Source: Caldalkalibacillus uzonensis (GTDB lineage Bacteria; Bacillota; Bacilli; Caldalkalibacillales; Caldalkalibacillaceae). From it: a stretch of 64,000 nucleotides of DNA. A model generated the notes under the pieces. It was not told where the DNA came from and searched no databases. It was given only the letters and a program-made list of their open reading frames with translations. Made by a program: the position numbers and the translations under genes. Positions within the stretch are counted from its first letter, which is position 1. Every line of letters starts with the position of its first letter. The stretch spans positions 186,001 through 250,000 of the forward strand of contig NZ_JAUSUQ010000003.1 of the NCBI RefSeq assembly GCF_030814135.1, written 5' to 3'. Positions 6,604 through 18,250 of this stretch are shown one piece after another.

Positions 6604-8151
6604 TTACAAAATTTCAGAGACCGCTTTTTTCAACAGGAAGTTTAAGAGATAATCCTGATCCCCTGTTTTGGCGTTCGTACCGGACATATTAAATCCGCCA
6701 AACGGATGAACACCAACGATTGCACCTGTTGACTTGCGGTTAAAATACAGGTTGCCCACATAAAATTCTTCTCTTGCTTTTTCCAAGTTATAGCGGTTGC
6801 GAGAGTAGACCGACCCGGTTAAGCCGTACTCCGTATTGTTGGCAATCTGCAGGGCATGGTCAAAATCTTTAGCTTTGATAAAGGCCACAACCGGCCCGAA
6901 AATCTCTTCCTGGGCAATACGGGCATTGGGATCCACGTCAGCAAAGATAGTTGGCTGCACAAAGAATCCTTCGTCAGAACCTTTCTCACCGCCTGCCAAC
7001 AAACGCCCTTCTTGTTTCCCAATTTCAATGTACTCCAGAATTTTGCTTTGGGCTGCTTCATCAATGACAGGTCCGGTGAAGGTGTCTGGCTTGCTCACAT
7101 CACCAACTTTTAATTGCTCCGTTTTTTCCACAACCAATTGCAGCACTTGATCATAGACGTCTTCCAGGATAATCGCCCGTGAGCCGGCGGAACATTTTTG
7201 GCCTGAGAAGCCGAAAGCTGAGGCGACAATGCCTTGGGCCGCTGCTTCCAGGTCGGCATCTTTGTCAACGATGACGGCATTTTTACCGCCCATTTCAGCC
7301 ACAACCCGCTTAATCCATTTTTGTTTGTCAGAACGTTTGGCAGCCAGCTCATTAATGCGCAAGCCCACATCGCGGGAACCGGTAAAGGTGATAAAGCGGG
7401 TTTGCGGATGTTCAACCAGGTAATCCCCAACTTCAGAACCGCTGCCAGGCAAGTAGTTGACGACACCAGCCGGAAGACCTGCTTCCTCCAAGAGTTCCAT
7501 AAACTTATAGGCAATGACCGGCGTAGCGCTGGCTGGCTTTAACACCACTGTGTTACCCGTCACAATGGAGGAAACCGTCATACCGCACATAATGGCCAGC
7601 GGGAAGTTCCAGGGCGGAATCACGATACCAACGCCTAATGGAATATAAAAGGCTTCATTATCTTCTCCAGGCAAACGGGTTAATTCCTGCGGCTGGGCCA
7701 GACGGATCATGTCGCGTCCGTAATACTCCAAGAAATCAATCGCTTCCGCGGTATCTGCATCTGCTTCTACCCAAGATTTCCCGGCTTCTTTGACTAACCA
7801 GGCGGAAAACTCATGTTTACGTCTTCTTAACAGGGCAGCTGTTTTAAACAAGTAGCGGGCCCGGTGTTCAGCGGGAACACGTTTCCACTCTTCAAATGTT
7901 TCAGCTGCCACTTGAATCGCTTTTTCAGCCAAGGCTTGATCCGCTTTGGAGACGCGCCCAATCACTTCCCCCTTTTTGGAGGGGTTAACCGAGACAATCT
8001 TTTGCTCCGTGGTGATCCGTTCCCCGCCAATAATCAGCGGATACTTTCCCTCCAGCTCACCTTCCACTTTTTTCAAAGCCGCTTCAAAATCAGCCCGGTT
8101 TTGCTCATCCTTAAAGTTGGTGAACGGCTCTGGCTTAAATGCTTCTAACAT
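6604..8151 (-). CDS. rocA: 1-pyrroline-5-carboxylate (L-glutamate gamma-semialdehyde) dehydrogenase
   Basis: An aldehyde dehydrogenase of 515 residues, the usual length of Bacillus RocA/PutC. Visible features: NAD-site region [11 protein letters not shown], catalytic glutamate in [12 protein letters not shown], catalytic cysteine in [12 protein letters not shown] and the C-terminal [14 protein letters not shown]. It oxidises P5C/glutamate semialdehyde to glutamate with NAD, the second step of proline breakdown. The start is placed at ATG 8151 because AGGAAAGGATGG lies just upstream; the in-frame ATG at 8160 falls inside that ribosome binding site. It lies 23 bases after the proline dehydrogenase gene, so both come from the sigma-54 promoter at 9200. 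putC would be an equally valid name. Confidence 0.95.
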
Positions 8152-8174
8152 GTGAACCATCCTTTCCTAAAAGT

Positions 8175-9092
8175 TTATTTTTTCAACATGCCCTTCAAGA
8201 CAAAAGCGACGTTGGCCGGCCGCTCCGCCAGTCGGCGCATAAAGTAGCCGTACCAGTCGTTGCCATAGGGCACGTAGACACGCACACGGTACCCTTCTTC
8301 TACCAAGCGCAGCTGCAGTTCAGACCGGATGCCATATAACATTTGAAATTCAAAACAATCGTATGGGACGTTATTTTTCTGAACGAATTGTTTCGTATAA
8401 TCAATGATCGCCTCATCATGGGTGGCCACAGCGGCATAGCAGCCGTTTTCCAATTGCAGGCGAATCAGCTTTTTGAAGTTGTCATCCACATCCTGTTTTT
8501 CAGGATATGCCACTTCAGGAGACTCTTTATAGGCTCCTTTCACCAAGCGCAAGTTGGTTTTCAACTGAGCCAGATCCTGTACATCATCGGCACTGCGGTA
8601 CAGATAGGCTTGGATTACGGTGCCTACGTTGTCGTAGTTTTGTCTTAACCGTTTGTATATGTCCAGTGTATCTTCCAGATGAGCGTAATCTTCCATATCG
8701 ATGCGTACAAAGATGCCCAATGCTGCAGCTGTTTCCATGATGCGGTTCATATTAGCCAAACACAAGTCTTTGGAGATATCCAGGCCCATGGAAGTCAGTT
8801 TTAAAGACAAGTTGCAATCCAGCTTCTCCCTGGCCATGCCTTCCAAAGCAGCAATACAGTGATCAGCCATATCATTGGCTTCCTGTTCGTTGTAGACAAA
8901 TTCCCCCAGATGATCCATCGTAGCCATCAGCCCTTTGGCATTTAAGCCATGGATCACTTGCAAAGCAGAATCTAACGTAGCCCCTGCTACAAACCGGCTG
9001 GCCCCCAGAGCCAATCCATATTTCTTAGCCAGGCGATTCAATGTTTTGTTTTTTGCCATAAAGAGGAAAAAGTTTTTCATCACCTGTTCCAT
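8175..9092 (-). CDS. putB: Proline dehydrogenase
   Basis: A monofunctional, FAD-dependent proline dehydrogenase of 305 residues (typical for Bacillus PutB/FadM). Signature regions include LNLSLKLTSMGLD-type barrel strands (here CNLSLKLTSMGLDISKD), VRIDMEDYAHLEDT, NLRLVKGAYKE and, near the C-terminus, VRVYVPYGNDWYGYFMRRLAE, the FAD/proline binding motif. It oxidises proline to P5C and passes electrons to the quinone pool. The start at ATG 9092 follows AAAGGAGG at the right spacing; the longer reading frame to 9113 includes the ribosome binding site. First gene of the proline catabolic operon, divergent from the sigma-54 activator. Confidence 0.94.
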   Translation of the reverse strand: MEQVMKNFFLFMAKNKTLNRLAKKYGLALGASRFVAGATLDSALQVIHGLNAKGLMATMDHLGEFVYNEQEANDMADHCIAALEGMAREKLDCNLSLKLTSMGLDISKDLCLANMNRIMETAAALGIFVRIDMEDYAHLEDTLDIYKRLRQNYDNVGTVIQAYLYRSADDVQDLAQLKTNLRLVKGAYKESPEVAYPEKQDVDDNFKKLIRLQLENGCYAAVATHDEAIIDYTKQFVQKNNVPYDCFEFQMLYGIRSELQLRLVEEGYRVRVYVPYGNDWYGYFMRRLAERPANVAFVLKGMLKK

Positions 9093-9182
9093 GTGTTCCC
9101 CTCCTTTGCACAACTTTTCACTGTGCTAATTAGTCTTTCGCCATATAAAGTGCTTTCAAGTGAAAAGTTCCATTTTCTTAAC

Positions 9183-9200
9183 AAGCAAATTTCATGCCAA
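9183..9200 (-). promoter_or_regulatory. Sigma-54 (-24/-12) promoter of putB-rocA
   Basis: On the minus strand TTGGCATGAAATTTGCTT carries GG (-24, 9198-9197) and GC (-12, 9186-9185) exactly ten bases apart, close to the consensus TGGCAC-N5-TTGCA. It lies about 90 bases before the putB start and the divergent gene encodes a sigma-54 activator, so promoter, regulator and target agree. Confidence 0.88.
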
Positions 9201-9251
9201 CTTTATCATTTCACTAAAATGTTGAAAAAACTCATGTTGATGGTCACTGCT

Positions 9252-9280
9252 TTGTCATTTTTCGCTATTGCATGTATAAT
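9252..9280 (+). promoter_or_regulatory. Sigma-A type promoter of the sigma-54 activator gene
   Basis: TTGTCA (9252-9257) and TATAAT (9275-9280) with a 17-base spacer, about 80 bases upstream of the regulator. Downstream, AATCTAAACAGATT (9333-9346) is a short imperfect palindrome that could be part of an upstream activating site, which is a guess. Confidence 0.65.
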
Positions 9281-9367
9281 ATATTTACACATTTGTATAG
9301 AATTTGTTTAGTTTCAATCCATTTATGTCTAGAATCTAAACAGATTTGAATTGGAGGGTCAGGGGAG

Positions 9368-10798
9368 ATGGGTCTACGTCAGTACCAAGAATCCCGTTTC
9401 TTTTTGGACGTATTAAACCGAGTCAGCAATGAGGCTATTACCATGGTTAATCTGGAAGGTGAGGTCCTGTTTTGGAGTGTAGCTGCGGAGCAAACCTATA
9501 ACATCAAACGAGAGGAGATTATTGGCAAAAAAATCAAAGATTTCTTCCGGCAAGAAGACCTGATTGTGTTAAAAATGCTGGAGACAGAACAGCCTGTTAG
9601 GGGTATTTACCACCGTCCCCGTCCAGATAAACATGTTTTAATCAATTCAGCCCCTGTTTATGACGATGAGGGGCGCTTAATCGGGGCGGTTTCAGTGGAA
9701 CAAGATATTTCCCAGTTGGTCAAGTTAAATGAGGAGCTGTCGGATGCCTCCCTGCAGCTTGATCAGCTGAAAAGTGCGGTCTCCCAAAACCATGCTGAAA
9801 GTCCCTTTTCCCAAATTAAAGGGAAAAGCAGGACCATTCAGGAGGCCATACAGATGGCCATGAAAGTGGCCAAAACGGAAGCCACGGTACTGATCACAGG
9901 GGAAAGCGGCGTCGGCAAAGAACTTTTTGCCCGGGCGATTCATGAAGCCAGCCTGCGCCATGACCAACCTTTTGTGCCCATTAACTGCGGTGCCATCCCC
10001 CCAGCCTTGTTCGAAAGTGAGTTGTTTGGCTATGAAGCAGGGGCGTTTACAGGTGCGTCCAAAGAAGGGAAAAAAGGCAAAATAGAGCTGGCCTCTGGGG
10101 GGACCCTGTTTTTGGACGAAGTGGGCGAACTGCCTATGGACATGCAGGTCAAACTGCTCCGTGTCCTGCAGGAGCAGGAAGTGTACCGTATCGGCGCCAC
10201 CAAACCGCTGCCGGTTAATATCCGGGTCTTGGCTGCCACCAACCGTAACCTGGAGCAAATGGCGGCTGAAGGAACTTTCAGAGAAGACCTGTACTACCGT
10301 CTCAATGTGGTCTCTTTGTCCATCCCTCCCCTCCGTGATCGTCTGGAAGATATCCCGGAACTGGTGCAAATGTTCATTAACGAATTTGCAGCCAAGTACC
10401 AAAAGCCGATTCCCTCACTGGATAGCCAAGTGATGGCCCTATTCTTACAATACCATTGGCCGGGCAACATTCGCCAGCTGCGTAATGTGGTGGAGCGCTT
10501 GATCATTTTGACGGATGGGCAAGAGATCAAAGAGGAAGATGTCCGCTATCTCTTTCCAGTTGCTGAAAGTTCGGGACGACAGCAATATGTATCCCAACCA
10601 GCAAACGATTTCTCTACCTTCCGCTTCAACCCATTGTCAGTAGAGAAAGAGGCTTTAGAAAAGCGGCGGATTGAACAAGCCTTGAAAGAGACCTATGGCA
10701 ATAAAAGTGCCGCAGCCAAAAAGCTGGGTATTTCCCGGGCAACCCTCTATCAGAAGTTGAAACAGTATGGGCTAAGTTGGAAGCGGGAGGGGCGGTAA
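9368..10798 (+). CDS. Sigma-54-dependent PAS/AAA+/Fis activator of proline catabolism
   Basis: A 476-residue enhancer-binding protein. Residues about 10-115 are a PAS domain, about 150-380 an AAA+ ATPase with Walker A GESGVGKE at 178-185, the sigma-54-contacting loop GAFTGA at 225-230 and Walker [12 protein letters not shown], and about 435-476 a Fis-type helix-turn-helix ([20 protein letters not shown]). It is a RocR/PrdR-like architecture. It should bind upstream of the -24/-12 promoter at 9183-9200 and open it for sigma-54 polymerase when its PAS domain senses an inducer, probably proline or a derivative. GGAGG ten bases before ATG supports the start. The effector is inferred from the neighbours. 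Confidence 0.9.
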
Positions 10799-10877: not shown

Positions 10878-10923
10878 AAGTAATCCACTACCCAGCTTGG
10901 CCGAGCGGGTGGATTACTTTTTT
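10878..10923 (+). terminator. Rho-independent terminator after the sigma-54 activator
   Basis: AAGTAATCCAC and GTGGATTACTT form an 11-pair perfect stem around a GC-rich loop, followed by TTTTTT. It ends the activator transcript and insulates the ECF sigma operon. Confidence 0.93.
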
Positions 10924-11063: not shown

Positions 11064-11089
11064 TGTAACTTTTGCCCTGCCCATTTGTC
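11064..11089 (+). promoter_or_regulatory. Candidate ECF-sigma promoter of the 11-14.5 kb operon
   Basis: TGTAAC (11064-11069) followed by a T-run and, 16 bases on, TGTC (11086-11089) resembles Bacillus ECF promoters (TGAAAC/TGTAAC-N16-CGTC). It would start transcription about 58 bases before the first gene, giving an autoregulated operon. The -10 differs from CGTC at its first base, so this is a hypothesis. Confidence 0.42.
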
Positions 11090-11153
11090 ATTACTAGTGA
11101 AGGTTACTTCCCAATCAATACATGCTGCATGCTTAGCTACACTGCGGGGTGAG

Positions 11154-13220
11154 ATGATGATCGAATTCCTCATGATGTTTGTTGAACATATGCAACGTTA
11201 TGTTCCCTTGAGCTTATACACCATGTACCTGATGGGAATCAGTATAACCATGTTAGGACTTATCCAGTTGTACCATCTCCTGTTTGACCCGCATCAAGCA
11301 GAAAAACAGCTGCTATGGATGGGGATCATAGTACGTGTCCTCATGTTTGCAGCTATCACCATTGAGTTTGTTCATCACTTCAGTCACTACTCGTTGCAAT
11401 ATATATCGTATTGGGATGCAGACACGATTATCAATCAATATATGAATATTCTGTTTTACAGTTATATTGTGGTAGCCGGTATTCACTATATTCTTAGTTT
11501 GCCTTATCAGAGATGGTTCGGTTTTTTTTACACCTTTGACCTTTTTCTGGTGCTTAACCCTATTTTGCTTATCTTACCGGGGGTAGAGTTAGAGGAATTC
11601 TTTAGAGATCCGGTGGGTTACCTGTTTATATTACTTGTTCTGTCTTTGGTTGCTGCTTTGTATTTGTTTTTTGAGCTTTATTGGCGACGGGGATGGAAAG
11701 TTTATGGTCTCTTTTTCCTGCTGACCGGAGCGGCAACATGGGTGGTTCACACCATTCCATTAGATATGCTCGTTCCTGTCTTCACCTTTTTATTGTTGCT
11801 CGGCATGTATGAAGGAACCAAACATTTTATCTGGCCTTGGGTAATTAGGCATACTTATGGTTTTAAACGTGGATTAAGATTGGTCTTATGCAATGTCCCT
11901 TTGTTGCTGATCATGTCAGCAAATCCGTTTTATAATGTGTGGCTGTGGGCGGCTGCCAAAGCCAGCTATCCTGTAGAACTGGCCTATCGGGAAGAGGTGA
12001 CTATCGCCACGCTAAATGAGGTTGAACAAATAGCCCGGCAGGCCACAGGCAACTGGGAGGATAACATCATTGTCATGCAAGGCTATATTGAAGATTTTCA
12101 TAATATATACCGGTTACGATTGGGTGAATATCACCTGGATTTTAACGGGGTCTCCGGCAAGTTACTCAACCTGTCCCGCTCGCTGGGGAGGGATGAAGCA
12201 GAAGATTCTCTGCTTCATTCCCACAGCACTCTGCTCAATCAAGAAAAAATTAAAGCTAAAACCATCGATTGGCTGGCATCGGTCGGGTACACCTTTCATC
12301 CTGAGTACCACCACATGGACATTGAAGAGGAAAGGGACCATTTTTCCGTTCACATTTACCGCAAATGGTCCGATGGAGAACTCCAGAGAACGGAGCATGA
12401 TTGGAGCGCTTTCCTGCGCTGGTCTAAAACAGGGCAGATTGATCATTTCTCTTCCGGTATTGTTTTTATGCTGGATGATTACGAGCAGATCAAGCTGAGT
12501 GAAGAGCAAGTTGAGCAGGTCATCCGCCACTGGTATGAAGGGTTAGGGCAACCAACACCAGCTTACCAGTTGAGCCACGCTTCCTTTTGGTATGATGGAG
12601 AAGGACCATCACTCTGGATTGATACTGGACATGGCGACCGCTTGACACTCAGCGGTCTGACAGGAGACGTCCTGGCCTACAACCGGGCTGACGAGGAGCA
12701 AACCCCCCCTGAACAAGCGGCTGGACAAAGGCAAACTGCTGCTTCAGACATTGCAGCCGCGGCAGAACAATGGGCAGCGCAATGGGTGAGGGACTGGTAC
12801 GACCAGCCCTATACACGAGTCGAAACTGAAGAACCAGGACTCTTTTCCTGGCAGGCCCGGGACCAAAACAGTACAGGACTCACCCGTCATGTTGATGTCA
12901 CACTAGATGAAAAAGGAGCATTAGTCTCGTTCAATTACTCTGTTTATGCCGATAGAGAGGAAACATATCAGCAGAATCGTTTTCCTGTTTCCCGCCAGGA
13001 GGCATTACAGCGAGTGAAAGAAAAATACCCTCTCCTCTCTCTTTACGCCCAACGGATCAAACTGGCCTGCGTCATCAACCGTTCAGGAGAGGTTGACCTT
13101 AAGTGGCTCGTTGTATTGATGCCCTTTGCCACGCAAGAACACCACTTGTATTTTGTCGATGTGCAAACGGGAGAAATAACACCTTTAGCAGACTATAAGC
13201 AAAGCAGGGATGATGGATGA
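11154..13220 (+). CDS. Polytopic membrane protein with large C-terminal exported domain, function unknown
   Basis: A 688-residue protein that I cannot name. Residues 1 to about 270 contain roughly seven or eight hydrophobic segments (for example YLFILLVLSLVAALYLFFEL and PVFTFLLLLGMYEG). The remaining 400 residues are hydrophilic and resemble repeats of the PepSY/YcdB type: alternating short helices (EVEQIARQATGNW, RQEALQRVKEKYP) and beta-rich stretches ending in a phrase like YFVDVQTGEITPL. PepSY-like domains often sit outside the membrane and inhibit or guide proteases. The start is placed at ATG 11154 after CGGGGTGAG; the frame is open back to 10950 but that part is unlike protein. Its stop overlaps the next gene by 4 bases, so it is the first gene of the sigma operon. 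Confidence 0.8.
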   Translation: MMIEFLMMFVEHMQRYVPLSLYTMYLMGISITMLGLIQLYHLLFDPHQAEKQLLWMGIIVRVLMFAAITIEFVHHFSHYSLQYISYWDADTIINQYMNILFYSYIVVAGIHYILSLPYQRWFGFFYTFDLFLVLNPILLILPGVELEEFFRDPVGYLFILLVLSLVAALYLFFELYWRRGWKVYGLFFLLTGAATWVVHTIPLDMLVPVFTFLLLLGMYEGTKHFIWPWVIRHTYGFKRGLRLVLCNVPLLLIMSANPFYNVWLWAAAKASYPVELAYREEVTIATLNEVEQIARQATGNWEDNIIVMQGYIEDFHNIYRLRLGEYHLDFNGVSGKLLNLSRSLGRDEAEDSLLHSHSTLLNQEKIKAKTIDWLASVGYTFHPEYHHMDIEEERDHFSVHIYRKWSDGELQRTEHDWSAFLRWSKTGQIDHFSSGIVFMLDDYEQIKLSEEQVEQVIRHWYEGLGQPTPAYQLSHASFWYDGEGPSLWIDTGHGDRLTLSGLTGDVLAYNRADEEQTPPEQAAGQRQTAASDIAAAAEQWAAQWVRDWYDQPYTRVETEEPGLFSWQARDQNSTGLTRHVDVTLDEKGALVSFNYSVYADREETYQQNRFPVSRQEALQRVKEKYPLLSLYAQRIKLACVINRSGEVDLKWLVVLMPFATQEHHLYFVDVQTGEITPLADYKQSRDDG

Positions 13221-13570
13221 TGAATCACCAGCAAAGTTTGACTGAACAGTGTGCTATATTTCGTGATCTTTATGCAGACTATCAAGCAGATCATGTGGAA
13301 CAAGAAACGAAGCAATGGATGGAAGAACATCTGTACCAGTGTGGTAATTGCCAAGAATGGATAACCCTAGGAGGAACATCCCAAACGGCAGGAGAGGATC
13401 AACATGAACCAGGGGAAAGCTTCTCCGTGCAGCAAACATCATCTGTTCATTCATCATCCTTAACCAAGGAAGAGCTGAAAACCATCCGGACAGCAAAGCG
13501 CATGCTTTGGCTAGGCATTGGGCTAGTCACAGCTTTGTCTGTCTGGGTAGCCTTCTGGTTCTACTTTTAA
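13217..13570 (+). CDS. zf-HC2 anti-sigma-like membrane protein (first copy)
   Basis: A 117-residue protein with an N-terminal HxxxCxxC zinc-binding motif (EEHLYQCGNCQEW), a Ser/Gln-rich linker and one C-terminal membrane segment (MLWLGIGLVTALSVWVAFWF). This is the shape of zf-HC2/RsiW-like anti-sigma factors that hold an ECF sigma at the membrane. It overlaps the 3' end of the 688-residue gene (ATGATGAAT region) and is followed 32 bases later by the sigma gene. Having the anti-sigma-like gene before the sigma, with a second one after it, is unusual. Which one binds the sigma cannot be told from sequence. Confidence 0.8.
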   Translation: MMNHQQSLTEQCAIFRDLYADYQADHVEQETKQWMEEHLYQCGNCQEWITLGGTSQTAGEDQHEPGESFSVQQTSSVHSSSLTKEELKTIRTAKRMLWLGIGLVTALSVWVAFWFYF

Positions 13571-13602
13571 ACTTAAGCGCTTGAAGTGTAGGGGTATTAA
13601 TC

Positions 13603-14148
13603 ATGGACAACTATTTTAGACAACTAGAAAAATTTTATGAGCAATACCAGCCAGAAATATACGCCTATCTCTATCATCAAACAGGCCGGAAAGAGATCGC
13701 TGAAGAATTATGCCAGGATGTCTTTTTGAAAGCTTACCACGGGCTGCCCTCATATCGGGGGCAAGCTTCTATCAAATCATGGCTGTACCGCATTGCCCAT
13801 AACCATTTTGTGACCTGGTACCGCCGGGAAACAAGATACCGTATGGTACCCATCAAAACAGAGCTCCTTCATCAACTCGAGGCAGATCATGATTTGCCCC
13901 ACAAATCTTTAGAGCAAAAAGAAGAAAGTGAGCATGTACGGCGTATTTTGAACCAACTGAAAACAGAGTTCCGAACCGTCCTGATTTTACGAGACATACA
14001 GGAACTAGCTTATCAAGAAATAGCGGATATTCTAGGCTGGAGTTTGCCCAAAGTGAAAACCACCTTGCATCGGGCGCGGCTGCAGTTTCGTCTGGACTTT
14101 GAAAAATACGAGCAAGGACAAGTTGTTAATCAAAGACGGAAAGGATGA
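13603..14148 (+). CDS. ECF (sigma-70 family) RNA polymerase sigma factor
   Basis: A 181-residue ECF sigma factor with only regions 2 and 4. Region 2 is about residues 13-80 (AEELCQDVFLKAYHGLPSYR, then IKSWLYRIAHNHFVTWYRRE). Region 4 is about residues 120-175 (TVLILRDIQELAYQEIADIL, LPKVKTTLHRARLQFR). Length and motifs match the SigW/SigX/SigM group, but I cannot place it in one subgroup. Flanked by two zf-HC2 proteins, it probably answers a cell-envelope signal. A TAGGGG nine bases before ATG serves as ribosome binding site. Confidence 0.93.
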   Translation: MDNYFRQLEKFYEQYQPEIYAYLYHQTGRKEIAEELCQDVFLKAYHGLPSYRGQASIKSWLYRIAHNHFVTWYRRETRYRMVPIKTELLHQLEADHDLPHKSLEQKEESEHVRRILNQLKTEFRTVLILRDIQELAYQEIADILGWSLPKVKTTLHRARLQFRLDFEKYEQGQVVNQRRKG

Positions 14149-14153
14149 GACAA

Positions 14154-14483
14154 ATGAAATGTTCCTTAGTACGTGATTTACTCCCGCTGTACAGAGAAGA
14201 GAACTGTCGTCCTGAAACAATACGGGCAGTAGAAAAGCATCTAAACACCTGCCCCCATTGCCACAAATTGTATAAAGCGTTGGACCAACCGCTTAAACTC
14301 AAGTCATTACTTGGAGAGAAGGAAGCACCTCTCAATGTGGACACGGCTGCTGATACAGAGCCCAGCAACTTGCAGCAACGGGAATTTTGGCGGCGCTACT
14401 ATGGCAGATATTTAGTGAAAGGAAGTCTGCTGTTTTTAGTGCTATATCTCTTGCTGGTGGCAGGCGGAAAAGTATTCTCTTAA
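14154..14483 (+). CDS. zf-HC2 anti-sigma-like membrane protein (second copy)
   Basis: A 109-residue protein beginning MKCSLVRDLLPLYREE, the common N-terminus of zf-HC2 anti-sigma proteins, followed by the HxxxCxxC site (EKHLNTCPHCHKLY) and one C-terminal membrane segment (GSLLFLVLYLLLVAGG). The start at ATG 14154 has GGATGAGA upstream, which itself includes the sigma stop codon; an ATG at 14145 overlapping that stop is the alternative. Of the two zf-HC2 proteins this one has the more canonical sequence, so I take it as the likelier cognate anti-sigma. Its stop is one base from the stop of the converging gene. Confidence 0.85.
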   Translation: MKCSLVRDLLPLYREENCRPETIRAVEKHLNTCPHCHKLYKALDQPLKLKSLLGEKEAPLNVDTAADTEPSNLQQREFWRRYYGRYLVKGSLLFLVLYLLLVAGGKVFS

Positions 14484-14484
14484 T

Positions 14485-16173
14485 TTAAAAGGAATCCCAG
14501 TTCAACCCATGCTCCAGCATAGATTTAAATTCAGCCAGAACAGGAAGATGCCGTTTTTCCAACTTAATCCTTAACAACTGGCAGACAGGTTGCAAGCAGG
14601 CATAAGCCTTATCGCTCTCCACTTGAATAACAGCGGGTATATAACCTAAGCAGTCAATCAGTTTGTGTAATTCTGAGTATAGCTTGTGAACCTCAGCGTT
14701 GTGCTCAGCAAGAGCAAAGCTGATGACCATTCCACTTTTGCCATCAAAAAACAGACACATTGTGGGAAAGTAGGGACGTTCACCTTTTCGGTTCTGCACA
14801 GGTTCTGTCATGTAATCAACATGGCAAATCAGCTCATGTGGTTTGCGTTGATAGGCCTTGCGCACCCTTTGCCAGGTGAGGCGATCCATGTGGTTCTGCG
14901 CTTTTTGAAACAGCTGCTGACGATACTCATCATCTAACTCCGCTAATGTCACACTCACATCCACAGTGCCATCCTGCCAGTTCCAGCTATTACCCTCTTT
15001 GACAGATATGCGGGCAAACTTGGTGTTCTGTGCTGTGTCTAACAAGGCCGGATTCTCTTTCACCCGTTGGCAAACGTTGATGGACTGGTATAAGACCCGT
15101 GTCATTAACCGTGCTTCATCCTCAGTGATATACCAAGGCAGATAACCAGGTGTATAGTTTCTGAATACTGGCCATTGATGGCGTCCCCTGTATTTTAAAC
15201 CTAGCCTTTTGATCAGCCGGTAGTCAAACTCACTCAACTCTTCACGGTTGTCGAAGGAAAGCAGTATACCTTGTTGCAGATGAAGCATGTCTTCGTCTGA
15301 CCCGATTCCATTCTGCATCATCATTAAAGAGCGTAAGCCCGGCTTGCCAAATAAGATCAATAAACCATACATATCTCCACCTTCACCCAGCACACAACCG
15401 TATCCCGTCTGTCCCGTTTGGCCATCAACAATGGCAAAATTGTCCACATCGGACATCCATTGCCACGGAGCAAGGGCCTTATACTGATTAGCCGCTTCAA
15501 ACAGTTGGCGCCAGATGAGGTCCTGTTCAGTCAATTGTTTTATTTGAGCCGTTCTGTGTGGGAGCGTGGAGCCTGATGAAGTTTGAGCCTGGGTTCTTTG
15601 CTGTAAAAATTGGGGGCTGTTTAAGCTCTTTTCCCTCTTGGCAAAAAACTGATTCAGCTCACCTTGCCAGCGTAGATTGGCCGCTTTGTCCTGGGTTGGC
15701 AGCCATTTGGCCTTGATGCAGCGTGGATATACCTTTTCTCTTTGTGGTTCCATAATAGCTTTGACTTCAAGTATATATTGAAGATCCAAACCAAAATCAG
15801 AAGTGTACACACATGTATCTCCTACATGCTGCAGCCATTCTCCCAGCTTTTCTTGTTCTTCATCCAACACTAAGGTCTGTCCGAACAAATCAATTCCCTT
15901 TATATTCTGATTGCCAATAAGCACCTTATCCCAGAAAGGAGAAAACGAGCCAAACAGCGAATCAGCATGTTCACCCGGCTTGCCTTCCAATTGTTGCTGT
16001 TTGGACTCCGGGATGGCGGGAACTTCAAACTGGTGCAGATGGATGTCATCGGGGTCAATGATCAGTTGCATGATATGATGTAATTGGGCAAACGTGATAT
16101 CCCGGTCTACCAGTATACGACACCATACGGGTGGTCTCGATCCTTTCAACCTTATTTTCAGCTCATAAATCAT
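14485..16173 (-). CDS. PRiA4-ORF3-like (IS1096 TnpR-like) domain protein
   Basis: A 562-residue protein. The first 180 or so residues match the plasmid pRiA4b ORF-3-like family (YELKIRLKGSRPPVWCRILV, HHIMQLIIDPDDIHLHQFEV). The central and C-terminal parts (around residues 220-400 and 420-560) look like two uncharacterised domains found in Bacillus proteins of the same length, with motifs such as YGCVLGEGGDMYGLLILFGK. No catalytic function is known to me. A full AGGAGG lies nine bases before ATG 16173, inside the last codons of the DUF2797 gene, two bases away, so both belong to one transcript. Not a mobile element itself despite the family name. Confidence 0.75.
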   Translation of the reverse strand: MIYELKIRLKGSRPPVWCRILVDRDITFAQLHHIMQLIIDPDDIHLHQFEVPAIPESKQQQLEGKPGEHADSLFGSFSPFWDKVLIGNQNIKGIDLFGQTLVLDEEQEKLGEWLQHVGDTCVYTSDFGLDLQYILEVKAIMEPQREKVYPRCIKAKWLPTQDKAANLRWQGELNQFFAKREKSLNSPQFLQQRTQAQTSSGSTLPHRTAQIKQLTEQDLIWRQLFEAANQYKALAPWQWMSDVDNFAIVDGQTGQTGYGCVLGEGGDMYGLLILFGKPGLRSLMMMQNGIGSDEDMLHLQQGILLSFDNREELSEFDYRLIKRLGLKYRGRHQWPVFRNYTPGYLPWYITEDEARLMTRVLYQSINVCQRVKENPALLDTAQNTKFARISVKEGNSWNWQDGTVDVSVTLAELDDEYRQQLFQKAQNHMDRLTWQRVRKAYQRKPHELICHVDYMTEPVQNRKGERPYFPTMCLFFDGKSGMVISFALAEHNAEVHKLYSELHKLIDCLGYIPAVIQVESDKAYACLQPVCQLLRIKLEKRHLPVLAEFKSMLEHGLNWDSF

Positions 16174-16175
16174 TA

Positions 16176-16982
16176 CTATCCTCCTGTTGAAACTACCTTT
16201 GCTTGCACATGATACCCACAGTACTTTTTCATATTAATCACGCCGTTTGTAAATAACAGATACTGGCCTTTGATACCAATTAACCGGTCTTCAATCTTAG
16301 GCTGCTTGTCCAGATTGTAAGACTTGATTTGACCCACCGCTTCCAGGATGGGATAGGTAAACTGGACAATCTCCTCTTCAGTTAGGACATAGTGCTTAAA
16401 TGACTCCGGCACAAATTCAAGCACATCATCCCGAACCTGTTTGAGGTCCACATCGTTAAATTCCCCTTTGAGCATTTTGCGCCAATTGGTTTTGTCTGGC
16501 AAGTAATCAGCCAGGGCCAGTTCAAGCTCTCCGGCTGTTTTGCGGTTAGGCACCTCAGCAATAGGAATCGCCTTGATCGCTCCCTGATCAGCCCAGCGCT
16601 TTAATTCATTGTTTTTACGGGTCAGGCCCACTTTCACGTCACTGCTTAAGGCCAAATAAACATAATGGGGAATCATGCAGTGCTGTTCCCCAAATGTTTC
16701 ATCCCGGCATGTCCCTTCGTCAAAGTGACACAAGCTGGGCTTGACAATACACATGTCATTTTCCGGCCGCTTTTTAAAACAGACGTAACAGCTGCCGTTG
16801 TTATACGTTTTTTTAATCTTGCGCCCACAATACACACATTCGATCTCTCCTGTAAACTGAAGACGAATCTGTTCGCCCAATACATGGTTCAATGGAAGTG
16901 TTTCATCCCCTAACTGTAAAAAATATTGCAAAGGATCCCCGTATTGATGGGTCAATCCCTTAACCATGCCGCTTGCTTGCAT
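16176..16982 (-). CDS. DUF2797 family protein with zinc-binding cysteines
   Basis: A 268-residue protein of the DUF2797 family. Two CxxC pairs (ECVYCGRKIKK and CYVCFKKRP) suggest a zinc ribbon at about residues 50-75. The conserved block VYLALSSDVKVGLTRKNNEL resembles the GIY-YIG-like start of this family, and further on comes LIGIKGQYLLFTNGVINMKK. Function is unknown. The start at ATG 16982 follows AAAGGAGG; the open frame continues upstream to 17135 but overlaps the MFS gene. It overlaps the end of the MFS gene by 31 bases and so is probably co-transcribed with it. Confidence 0.8.
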   Translation of the reverse strand: MQASGMVKGLTHQYGDPLQYFLQLGDETLPLNHVLGEQIRLQFTGEIECVYCGRKIKKTYNNGSCYVCFKKRPENDMCIVKPSLCHFDEGTCRDETFGEQHCMIPHYVYLALSSDVKVGLTRKNNELKRWADQGAIKAIPIAEVPNRKTAGELELALADYLPDKTNWRKMLKGEFNDVDLKQVRDDVLEFVPESFKHYVLTEEEIVQFTYPILEAVGQIKSYNLDKQPKIEDRLIGIKGQYLLFTNGVINMKKYCGYHVQAKVVSTGG

Positions 16983-18250
16983 GATGTGAACCTCCTTTGC
17001 TCCCTGAACACCAGGCCGCTGATGAAGATAAACAACAGCATGCCCCCAATTGCATAGTACAAACTGCCTTGGGCAAACCACTGAATGAACAATCCACCAA
17101 CCAGCGGACCTACTATACTCCCTATGGCAAAACAAACCGCAGCCATCACATTTCCTGTAGGTAAAAGGCTCTTGGGCAACAGATCAGCCAGATAGGCAAC
17201 CCCCAGTGAGAACAAGGAGCCAATCAGTGCGCCCGTGATAGCAAAAGTGCCCAGCAACAACCACATATTGTGCTCCACAAACACAGAACTGATAAAGGTT
17301 AACGCCCCCGTTCCGGTGACGATCAACAGCAATCGCCGACGCCCAATACGGTCACTTAAAATCCCCAGCGGCAATTGTGTGATCAGACTGCCAACCACAA
17401 ATGAAGACAGAAGGATCGCGCTCCAGCCAATATCTATCTCCGACCGCAAGGCGTAAACCGGAAAGTTGCCATGCAGCGCCGCTTCCAAAAAACCATAACC
17501 AAAGCAAGGCAACAACGCAAACCAACAACGCTTAAAAACTGTGCGATAACGCTGCCAGGTCCCAAGACCGGATGCGGTTTCTACATGGGACTCCGGCCAC
17601 TCATTGCGCAGCGTGATGAGCATCAACCAGGCTAACACATTGGTGACCGTGGCCACAAAAAAAGGCAATAGCTCATTAATTGTTAACAGGTGCATCATCA
17701 AGGGGCCGATGCCGAATCCCAGGCCAAAGGCCAAGCCATAAATAGCAATCTGACGTCCCCTTTTCTCAGCCGGGCTGGTTGAGGTGATCCACACTTGAGT
17801 GGCAAAGTGAATCATATTGTCTCCCATGCCGACAATGACCCGCAGCATGAACCAGAACCAAAACACCTGCCAGAAAGGAAATAGTATAATAGAAACCAGT
17901 ACCAACGTTAAGCCGATCACAATGACCGGTTTGTAGCCATAATTACGTACAGGGGCTTCAATAAAAGGGGAGGCCAGCAGAATGCCAATGTACAGTGCGG
18001 CGGCATTCAAACCGTTAAGCGCTGGAGGTACACCAATGCCCTCCAGCATCACAGCCAGGACAGGCAACAGCATGCCCTGGGAAAAGCCAGCAATACCGAC
18101 CATCACCACCAGTACCATAAACCGGTAAGTGGGATGATTGGGGCTTGTCATTTGTTCCGGTGTGGATTTATTGTGATGTTCACTTCTGTGTTCAGTTGCC
18201 TGTGGACTTTCTTCCAATCTGACAGCCCCTTTCCTTCTTTCACCAGCCAT
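16952..18250 (-). CDS. MFS transporter
   Basis: A major facilitator superfamily protein of up to 432 residues with twelve hydrophobic segments. The MFS loop motif between segments 8 and 9 is clear (LGILSDRIGRRRLLLIVTG). The first 35-40 residues are hydrophilic and His/Ser/Gln rich. A TTG at 18217 has AAAGGGG eight bases before it and may be the true start, shortening the tail; ATG 18250 has no obvious ribosome binding site. Substrate unknown; the family includes drug and sugar efflux pumps. First gene of a three-gene minus-strand unit with DUF2797 and the PRiA4-like gene. Confidence 0.85.
   Translation of the reverse strand: MAGERRKGAVRLEESPQATEHRSEHHNKSTPEQMTSPNHPTYRFMVLVVMVGIAGFSQGMLLPVLAVMLEGIGVPPALNGLNAAALYIGILLASPFIEAPVRNYGYKPVIVIGLTLVLVSIILFPFWQVFWFWFMLRVIVGMGDNMIHFATQVWITSTSPAEKRGRQIAIYGLAFGLGFGIGPLMMHLLTINELLPFFVATVTNVLAWLMLITLRNEWPESHVETASGLGTWQRYRTVFKRCWFALLPCFGYGFLEAALHGNFPVYALRSEIDIGWSAILLSSFVVGSLITQLPLGILSDRIGRRRLLLIVTGTGALTFISSVFVEHNMWLLLGTFAITGALIGSLFSLGVAYLADLLPKSLLPTGNVMAAVCFAIGSIVGPLVGGLFIQWFAQGSLYYAIGGMLLFIFISGLVFREQRRFTSCKQAAWLRD

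Follow-up and report, generated by a model that had tools for sequence, protein, structure and literature searches.

Why should one sigma factor be accompanied by three membrane proteins? The question is raised by a locus of Caldalkalibacillus uzonensis, in which an extracytoplasmic function (ECF) sigma factor gene is flanked by genes for two small zf-HC2-type proteins and preceded by a gene for a 688-residue membrane protein. The locus occupies positions 11,064–14,483 of a 64,000-nucleotide stretch of contig NZ_JAUSUQ010000003.1 (positions 186,001–250,000, forward strand), hereafter the window. A first-pass annotation of this DNA regarded the large protein as unknown, took one anti-sigma factor per ECF sigma factor as the norm, and suggested that the large protein could sense the envelope and control proteolysis or capture of an anti-sigma factor. 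Sequence relationships indicate that the locus is almost certainly a divergent ortholog of the B. subtilis stress-regulator operon ylaABCD; the set is a new member of an already known operon, outside the genus Bacillus. B. subtilis possesses seven ECF sigma factors, and YlaC is among the least understood. No role is assigned to YlaA or YlaB in the literature that we found. The supposed norm is also incomplete, as SigM has both YhdL and YhdK (PMC6827917). The best explanation as a whole combines the ylaABCD identity with an anti-sigma complex of YlaA, YlaB, and YlaD, and the balance tips slightly in its favor.

Identity, promoter, and distribution of the operon

The order ylaA-ylaB-ylaC-ylaD, in one direction, is shared by the window and nine named Bacillus loci, which include those of B. 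spizizenii, B. inaquosorum, B. tequilensis, B. halotolerans, B. siamensis, and B. nakamurai. A contig scan with a single protein gave no match, and an alignment query returned these nine loci. Searched against Bacilli genomes, the 688-residue protein gave two long, weak matches (23%; E 1.4e-22), both in one genus. The matched neighborhoods encode, in order, a membrane protein of about 645 residues, an 89-residue protein, an ECF sigma factor, and a zf-HC2 protein. They are located between suhB-type and typA-type genes, which is the setting of ylaABCD in B. subtilis, and the nine named loci confirmed this identity. The window YlaA aligns with Bacillus YlaA over the full length at 22–24% identity. 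All four genes are kept together in intact Bacillus copies, the most distant ones included, and the large gene is linked to the sigma factor gene in every such copy. The earlier view of one module is confirmed, with all four genes on the plus strand; a large gene unlinked to the sigma factor in relatives, which would have spoken against it, is not what the intact Bacillus copies show. A wholly new signaling module was rejected, as the set is ylaABCD.

The window sigma factor and YlaC are each other's best match (51%, versus 30% for the next ECF factor of the same genome). The window factor is placed just outside the Bacillus YlaC clade and is joined to that clade with a tree support of 97/92. 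Sigma regions 2 and 4 are clear in Pfam (5e-18 and 4.5e-14), and NCBIfam TIGR02950 is matched at 1.1e-45. The operon is already known from B. subtilis (Matsumoto et al. 2005, as cited in PMC2585143 and PMC1976550). YlaD regulates YlaC in that species and has a link to oxidative stress, and ylaCD is Spx-dependent (PMC1976550). The yla operon is itself under YlaC control (PMC10458515).

An ECF-type promoter had been proposed before the first gene. The site, TGTAAC-N16-TGTC, is the sole match to TGWAAC-N16-TGTC in the 64 kb; taken alone it is not significant, with the pattern present in 22 of 100 shuffles. The proposal is well supported by conservation ahead of Bacillus ylaA. TGAAAC-N16-TGTC lies 64–65 bases ahead of ylaA in eight of the nine named loci, and the ninth carries one change in the first hexamer. 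The subtilis-group promoters read TGAAACTTTT-N12-TGTCTA (eight of nine loci), and further spacer bases are shared as TGWAACTTTT. Both hexamers also precede ylaA in more distant Bacillus copies. Because the promoter is conserved in place and spacing in distant orthologs, autoregulation, with YlaC acting on the promoter of its own operon at 11064, is strongly suggested. The pattern TGWAAC-N16-TGTCWWW occurs twice in the 3.88-Mb genome, once at this site and once inside a coding region. No claim is made for a wider YlaC regulon in this genome, where the extended pattern gave two matches versus three for the reversed control.

The ylaA/ylaB and ylaC/ylaD junctions are 4-base overlaps, and ylaB and ylaC are separated by a 32-base gap (Table 1). 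The alignment with Bacillus YlaD suggests that ylaD may begin at 14154 instead of 14145. The set is separated from the preceding regulator gene by an intrinsic terminator (−19.4 kcal/mol, z −4.1; none of 200 shuffles equally good), and the gene downstream of 14483 runs in the opposite direction. The four-gene set therefore stands alone. The region upstream (6604–10798) contains genes for a Δ1-pyrroline-5-carboxylate (P5C) dehydrogenase-type aldehyde dehydrogenase and a proline dehydrogenase, divergent from a PAS/sigma-54-type activator gene, and constitutes a proline-use cluster adjoining the operon. The convergent genes past the operon (14485–17120) encode a DUF7309/DUF6930/PRiA4_ORF3 protein and a DUF2797 protein.

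Table 1. Features of the yla locus in the window
Feature	Position	Strand	Description
Intrinsic terminator of upstream PAS/sigma-54-type regulator gene	10878..10919	+	Stem-loop followed by a T run
Probable YlaC-type autoregulatory promoter, TGTAAC-N16-TGTC	11064..11089	+	Element and spacing conserved before Bacillus ylaA
Probable ylaA ortholog	11154..13220	+	688 residues; about 8 predicted membrane helices (residues ~26–259) and a ~420-residue outer part with plausible tandem PepSY-like units
Probable ylaB ortholog	13217..13570	+	117 residues; tail-anchored; complete zf-HC2 signature C12, H38, C42, C45
Probable ylaC ortholog	13603..14148	+	181 residues; ECF sigma factor, TIGR02950 SigM subfamily
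Probable ylaD ortholog	14145..14483	+	112 residues; tail-anchored zf-HC2 anti-sigma factor

Of 80 genomes of the Bacillus family, 26 contain YlaA, in some cases as a remnant; all 26 belong to one genus. YlaA was absent from all four other examined genomes of the window's order. Among 398 Bacilli genomes, no genus other than Bacillus contains YlaA besides this genome. The distribution of YlaC independently agrees, its scores falling from 278 to 138 bits among the same 398 genomes. The next-best ECF factors were rejected as YlaC copies, as the examined neighbors (L055 and L056) show other systems. The window copy is an old, isolated branch, which may result from loss elsewhere or from an old transfer. 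A mobile origin was rejected; the only match in the plasmid collection was a short piece of YlaA on a single record of Bacillus velezensis.

Most of ylaA, together with ylaB and ylaC, is deleted in three Bacillus genomes (L058, 6818–7302; L109, 3210–3745, minus strand; L110, 1198–1737). The deletions have different end points, and the promoter region and ylaD are kept. Two of them join at or close to the ylaD start codon; in one of these, the first ~58 residues of YlaA are fused in frame to YlaD. These genomes retain an anti-sigma factor without its sigma factor. A broken ylaA lies beside intact ylaB and ylaD in two other loci, L106 (1316–3249) and L107 (2559–4276), the latter also with a broken ylaC. 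The yla operon therefore decays repeatedly in the genus Bacillus.

The two zf-HC2-type proteins

The window YlaD contains Hx3Cx2C and matches zf-HC2 at 1.9e-7 (31.5 bits, above the cut-off of 22.2). It shares 30–38% identity with Bacillus YlaD and keeps all zinc ligands. In a profile comparison, it also hits the structure of RsiW, the anti-sigma-W factor (5wuq_C, E 7.9e-7). According to the first-pass annotation, the sigma factor is flanked on each side by a zf-HC2 protein. This holds for the signatures, which are complete in both proteins, but the upstream one, YlaB, remains below the Pfam cut-off (E 0.0036, 17.8 bits). Its Hx3Cx2C is composed of H38-x3-C42-x2-C45, and C12 provides the N-terminal cysteine.

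The window YlaB aligns with the window YlaD over 37 residues of the zinc domain (pairwise E 1e-7); by profile, the YlaB–YlaD relation is weak (E 9e-4, only 22.6% probability). It shares 28% identity with a Bacillus YlaB (E 2e-9), and the two have a common C-terminal membrane helix ending in WF(Y/F)F. Every zinc cysteine is lost in all Bacillus YlaB copies examined, which keep the helix pattern and the histidine. None of the Bacillus YlaB proteins scanned matched zf-HC2 or any other known family. Their last ten residues are near-invariant (SIWMTVWFYF), which suggests a specific helix–helix contact. The predicted YlaB model (predicted local distance difference test score, pLDDT, 61) consists of three short helices and one long membrane helix.

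By these comparisons, YlaB appears to be a paralog of the anti-sigma factor YlaD that has undergone decay. Because the window YlaB keeps the zinc cysteines and resembles its own YlaD, the best reading of YlaB is a membrane-anchored paralogous domain of anti-sigma type; the homology is seen directly, and from it we infer the role. The cysteine-free Bacillus YlaB could also bind a sigma factor, since many class I anti-sigma domains (about 44%) lack zinc and the binding of RsiW to its sigma factor is zinc-independent (PMC7406223).

The loss of the cysteines in all Bacillus copies examined and the repeated decay of the operon would also fit a YlaB that is a relic without regulatory role, leaving YlaC and YlaD as an ordinary sigma/anti-sigma pair. 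However, YlaB is kept in copies with intact YlaC and its membrane helix is strongly conserved, and we consider a relic improbable. An equally small chance is given to YlaB as a decoy, an anti-anti-sigma factor that would use its anti-sigma-like fold to compete for YlaD or YlaC and that has lost its zinc site in Bacillus. A paralog of YlaD that is degenerate in Bacillus and tail-anchored like YlaD would suit this role, but the window YlaB, with its complete zinc signature, could be a normal inhibitor.

The main value of the window locus is the light it sheds on YlaB as a paralogous anti-sigma-type protein. Since the zinc signature is intact in this distant copy, it reveals what YlaB is, which the Bacillus sequences by themselves do not disclose. 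A small gene that had lacked an explanation thereby becomes a second anti-sigma component open to testing. The comparison also provides a conserved promoter element, together with natural deletions that can serve in such tests.

YlaA and the proposed control of YlaC

Hydropathy and the distribution of positive charges predict about eight helices in YlaA. Both ends of the protein would lie outside, the C-terminal one as an outer part of about 420 residues. Seven of the helices are called by the scan, and the eighth is deduced from comparing two orthologs. Bacillus YlaA shares this topology of a polytopic N-terminal part and a large C-terminal part. YlaB and YlaD end 2–4 residues past their membrane helix and neither has an outside domain. 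YlaA is the only component of the operon with an outside part.

The outer part had been called PepSY/YcdB-like. On the YcdB side of this description, the match to DUF4901 (YcdB-type) is weak (E 4.9e-5, 23.9 bits, below the cut-off of 27), and no DUF4901 match is present in the nine Bacillus YlaA proteins. The PepSY side finds some support in the predicted YlaA model (pLDDT 49; predicted template modeling score, pTM, 0.33), in which the outer part displays repeated helix-plus-strands units. The best structural matches of this low-confidence model are the PepSY proteins YpeB (5boi; Z 10.0, 12.9 Å over 201 residues), CD1622 (4exr; Z 7.3, 2.1 Å over 61), and YpmB (2gu3; Z 7.2, 2.2 Å over 59). A PepSY/YcdB-like character of the outer part is therefore plausible. 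No solved structures related to YlaA by sequence were found.

As a separate observation, ylaA is divergent to an M4-type neutral protease gene in subtilis- and velezensis-type species (L010, 3744–5468; L011, 3847–5412; L058, 4933–6711). The propeptides of this protease family carry PepSY domains. The pairing is missing in more distant Bacillus copies and is perhaps due to chance.

In the mechanism we propose, YlaC would read the operon's own promoter and YlaD would hold YlaC at the membrane, as is known for B. subtilis and transferred here. YlaB would contribute another membrane-anchored domain of anti-sigma type, paralogous to that of YlaD, with a zinc signature here and cysteine-free in Bacillus. 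The membrane helices of YlaB and YlaD would unite both proteins with YlaA in a single complex, which would tighten or release the hold on YlaC by allosteric change, not cleavage. The controlled proteolysis first suggested for this locus is less likely: as YlaB and YlaD stop at the membrane helix, a site-1 protease would find no outer domain to cleave, and release by that route is unlikely. SigM is held by a YhdL–YhdK complex whose control is thought to be allosteric, not by regulated proteolysis (PMC6827917, PMC11081497). An allosteric YlaA–YlaB–YlaD membrane complex is proposed tentatively on this analogy as the most likely arrangement, although at somewhat below even chances. A three-protein complex in which two paralogous anti-sigma domains share one sigma factor and the PepSY-bearing polytopic protein controls the hold without proteolysis appears doubtful.

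The main rival to a complex is that YlaA is an output and not a sensor. YlaC would then control its own operon only, and YlaA would be the sole effector made when the zinc site of YlaD senses redox state or manganese in the cytoplasm; the PepSY-like outer part of YlaA would stabilize or inhibit an envelope enzyme. YlaD has been reported to be a redox switch that depends on manganese (Kwak et al. 2018, as cited in PMC10100999), and its link to oxidative stress comes from PMC1976550. PepSY proteins act on cell-wall enzymes (PMC10653890), and this genome contains no further convincing promoter copy. An output role for YlaA is nevertheless rather unlikely in our estimate: it leaves unexplained the second anti-sigma-type protein between YlaA and YlaC, the 4-base overlap of its gene with ylaA, and its near-invariant membrane helix.

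Several points weigh against the YlaA–YlaB–YlaD complex. The predicted model of YlaA is poor and that of YlaB is modest. A redox switch in YlaD would place sensing in the cytoplasm, without YlaA. Moreover, YlaD is kept without YlaA, YlaB, and YlaC in the three deletion genomes, and persists there without needing them.

Comparison with known systems

The zinc domain of YlaD resembles RsiW of the B. subtilis SigW–RsiW system. RsiW is released by stepwise proteolysis. YlaD differs from RsiW in having no outer domain.

YpeB and YpmB/TseB share with YlaA the putative PepSY-like units of the outer part, as judged from the low-confidence model. However, neither is linked to a sigma factor, and YpmB/TseB-type proteins have a single membrane anchor.

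The sigM-yhdL-yhdK system of B. subtilis likewise comprises an autoregulated ECF sigma factor with two membrane anti-sigma proteins and a release not by regulated proteolysis, the hold by two such proteins and the mode of release being proposed here for YlaC. YlaC also scores in the NCBIfam SigM subfamily. In contrast, no large outer-domain protein belongs to sigM-yhdL-yhdK, and YlaC forms a separate clade.

The window set and ylaABCD of B. subtilis share the gene order and the promoter element with its position, and all four proteins are homologous. The two differ in several respects. The window YlaA is about 23% identical and has a longer outer part, and the window YlaB possesses a complete Hx3Cx2C. 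In the window, genes for proline use and the regulator of these genes take the place of suhB and typA as neighbors, and the window genome belongs to another order of Bacilli.
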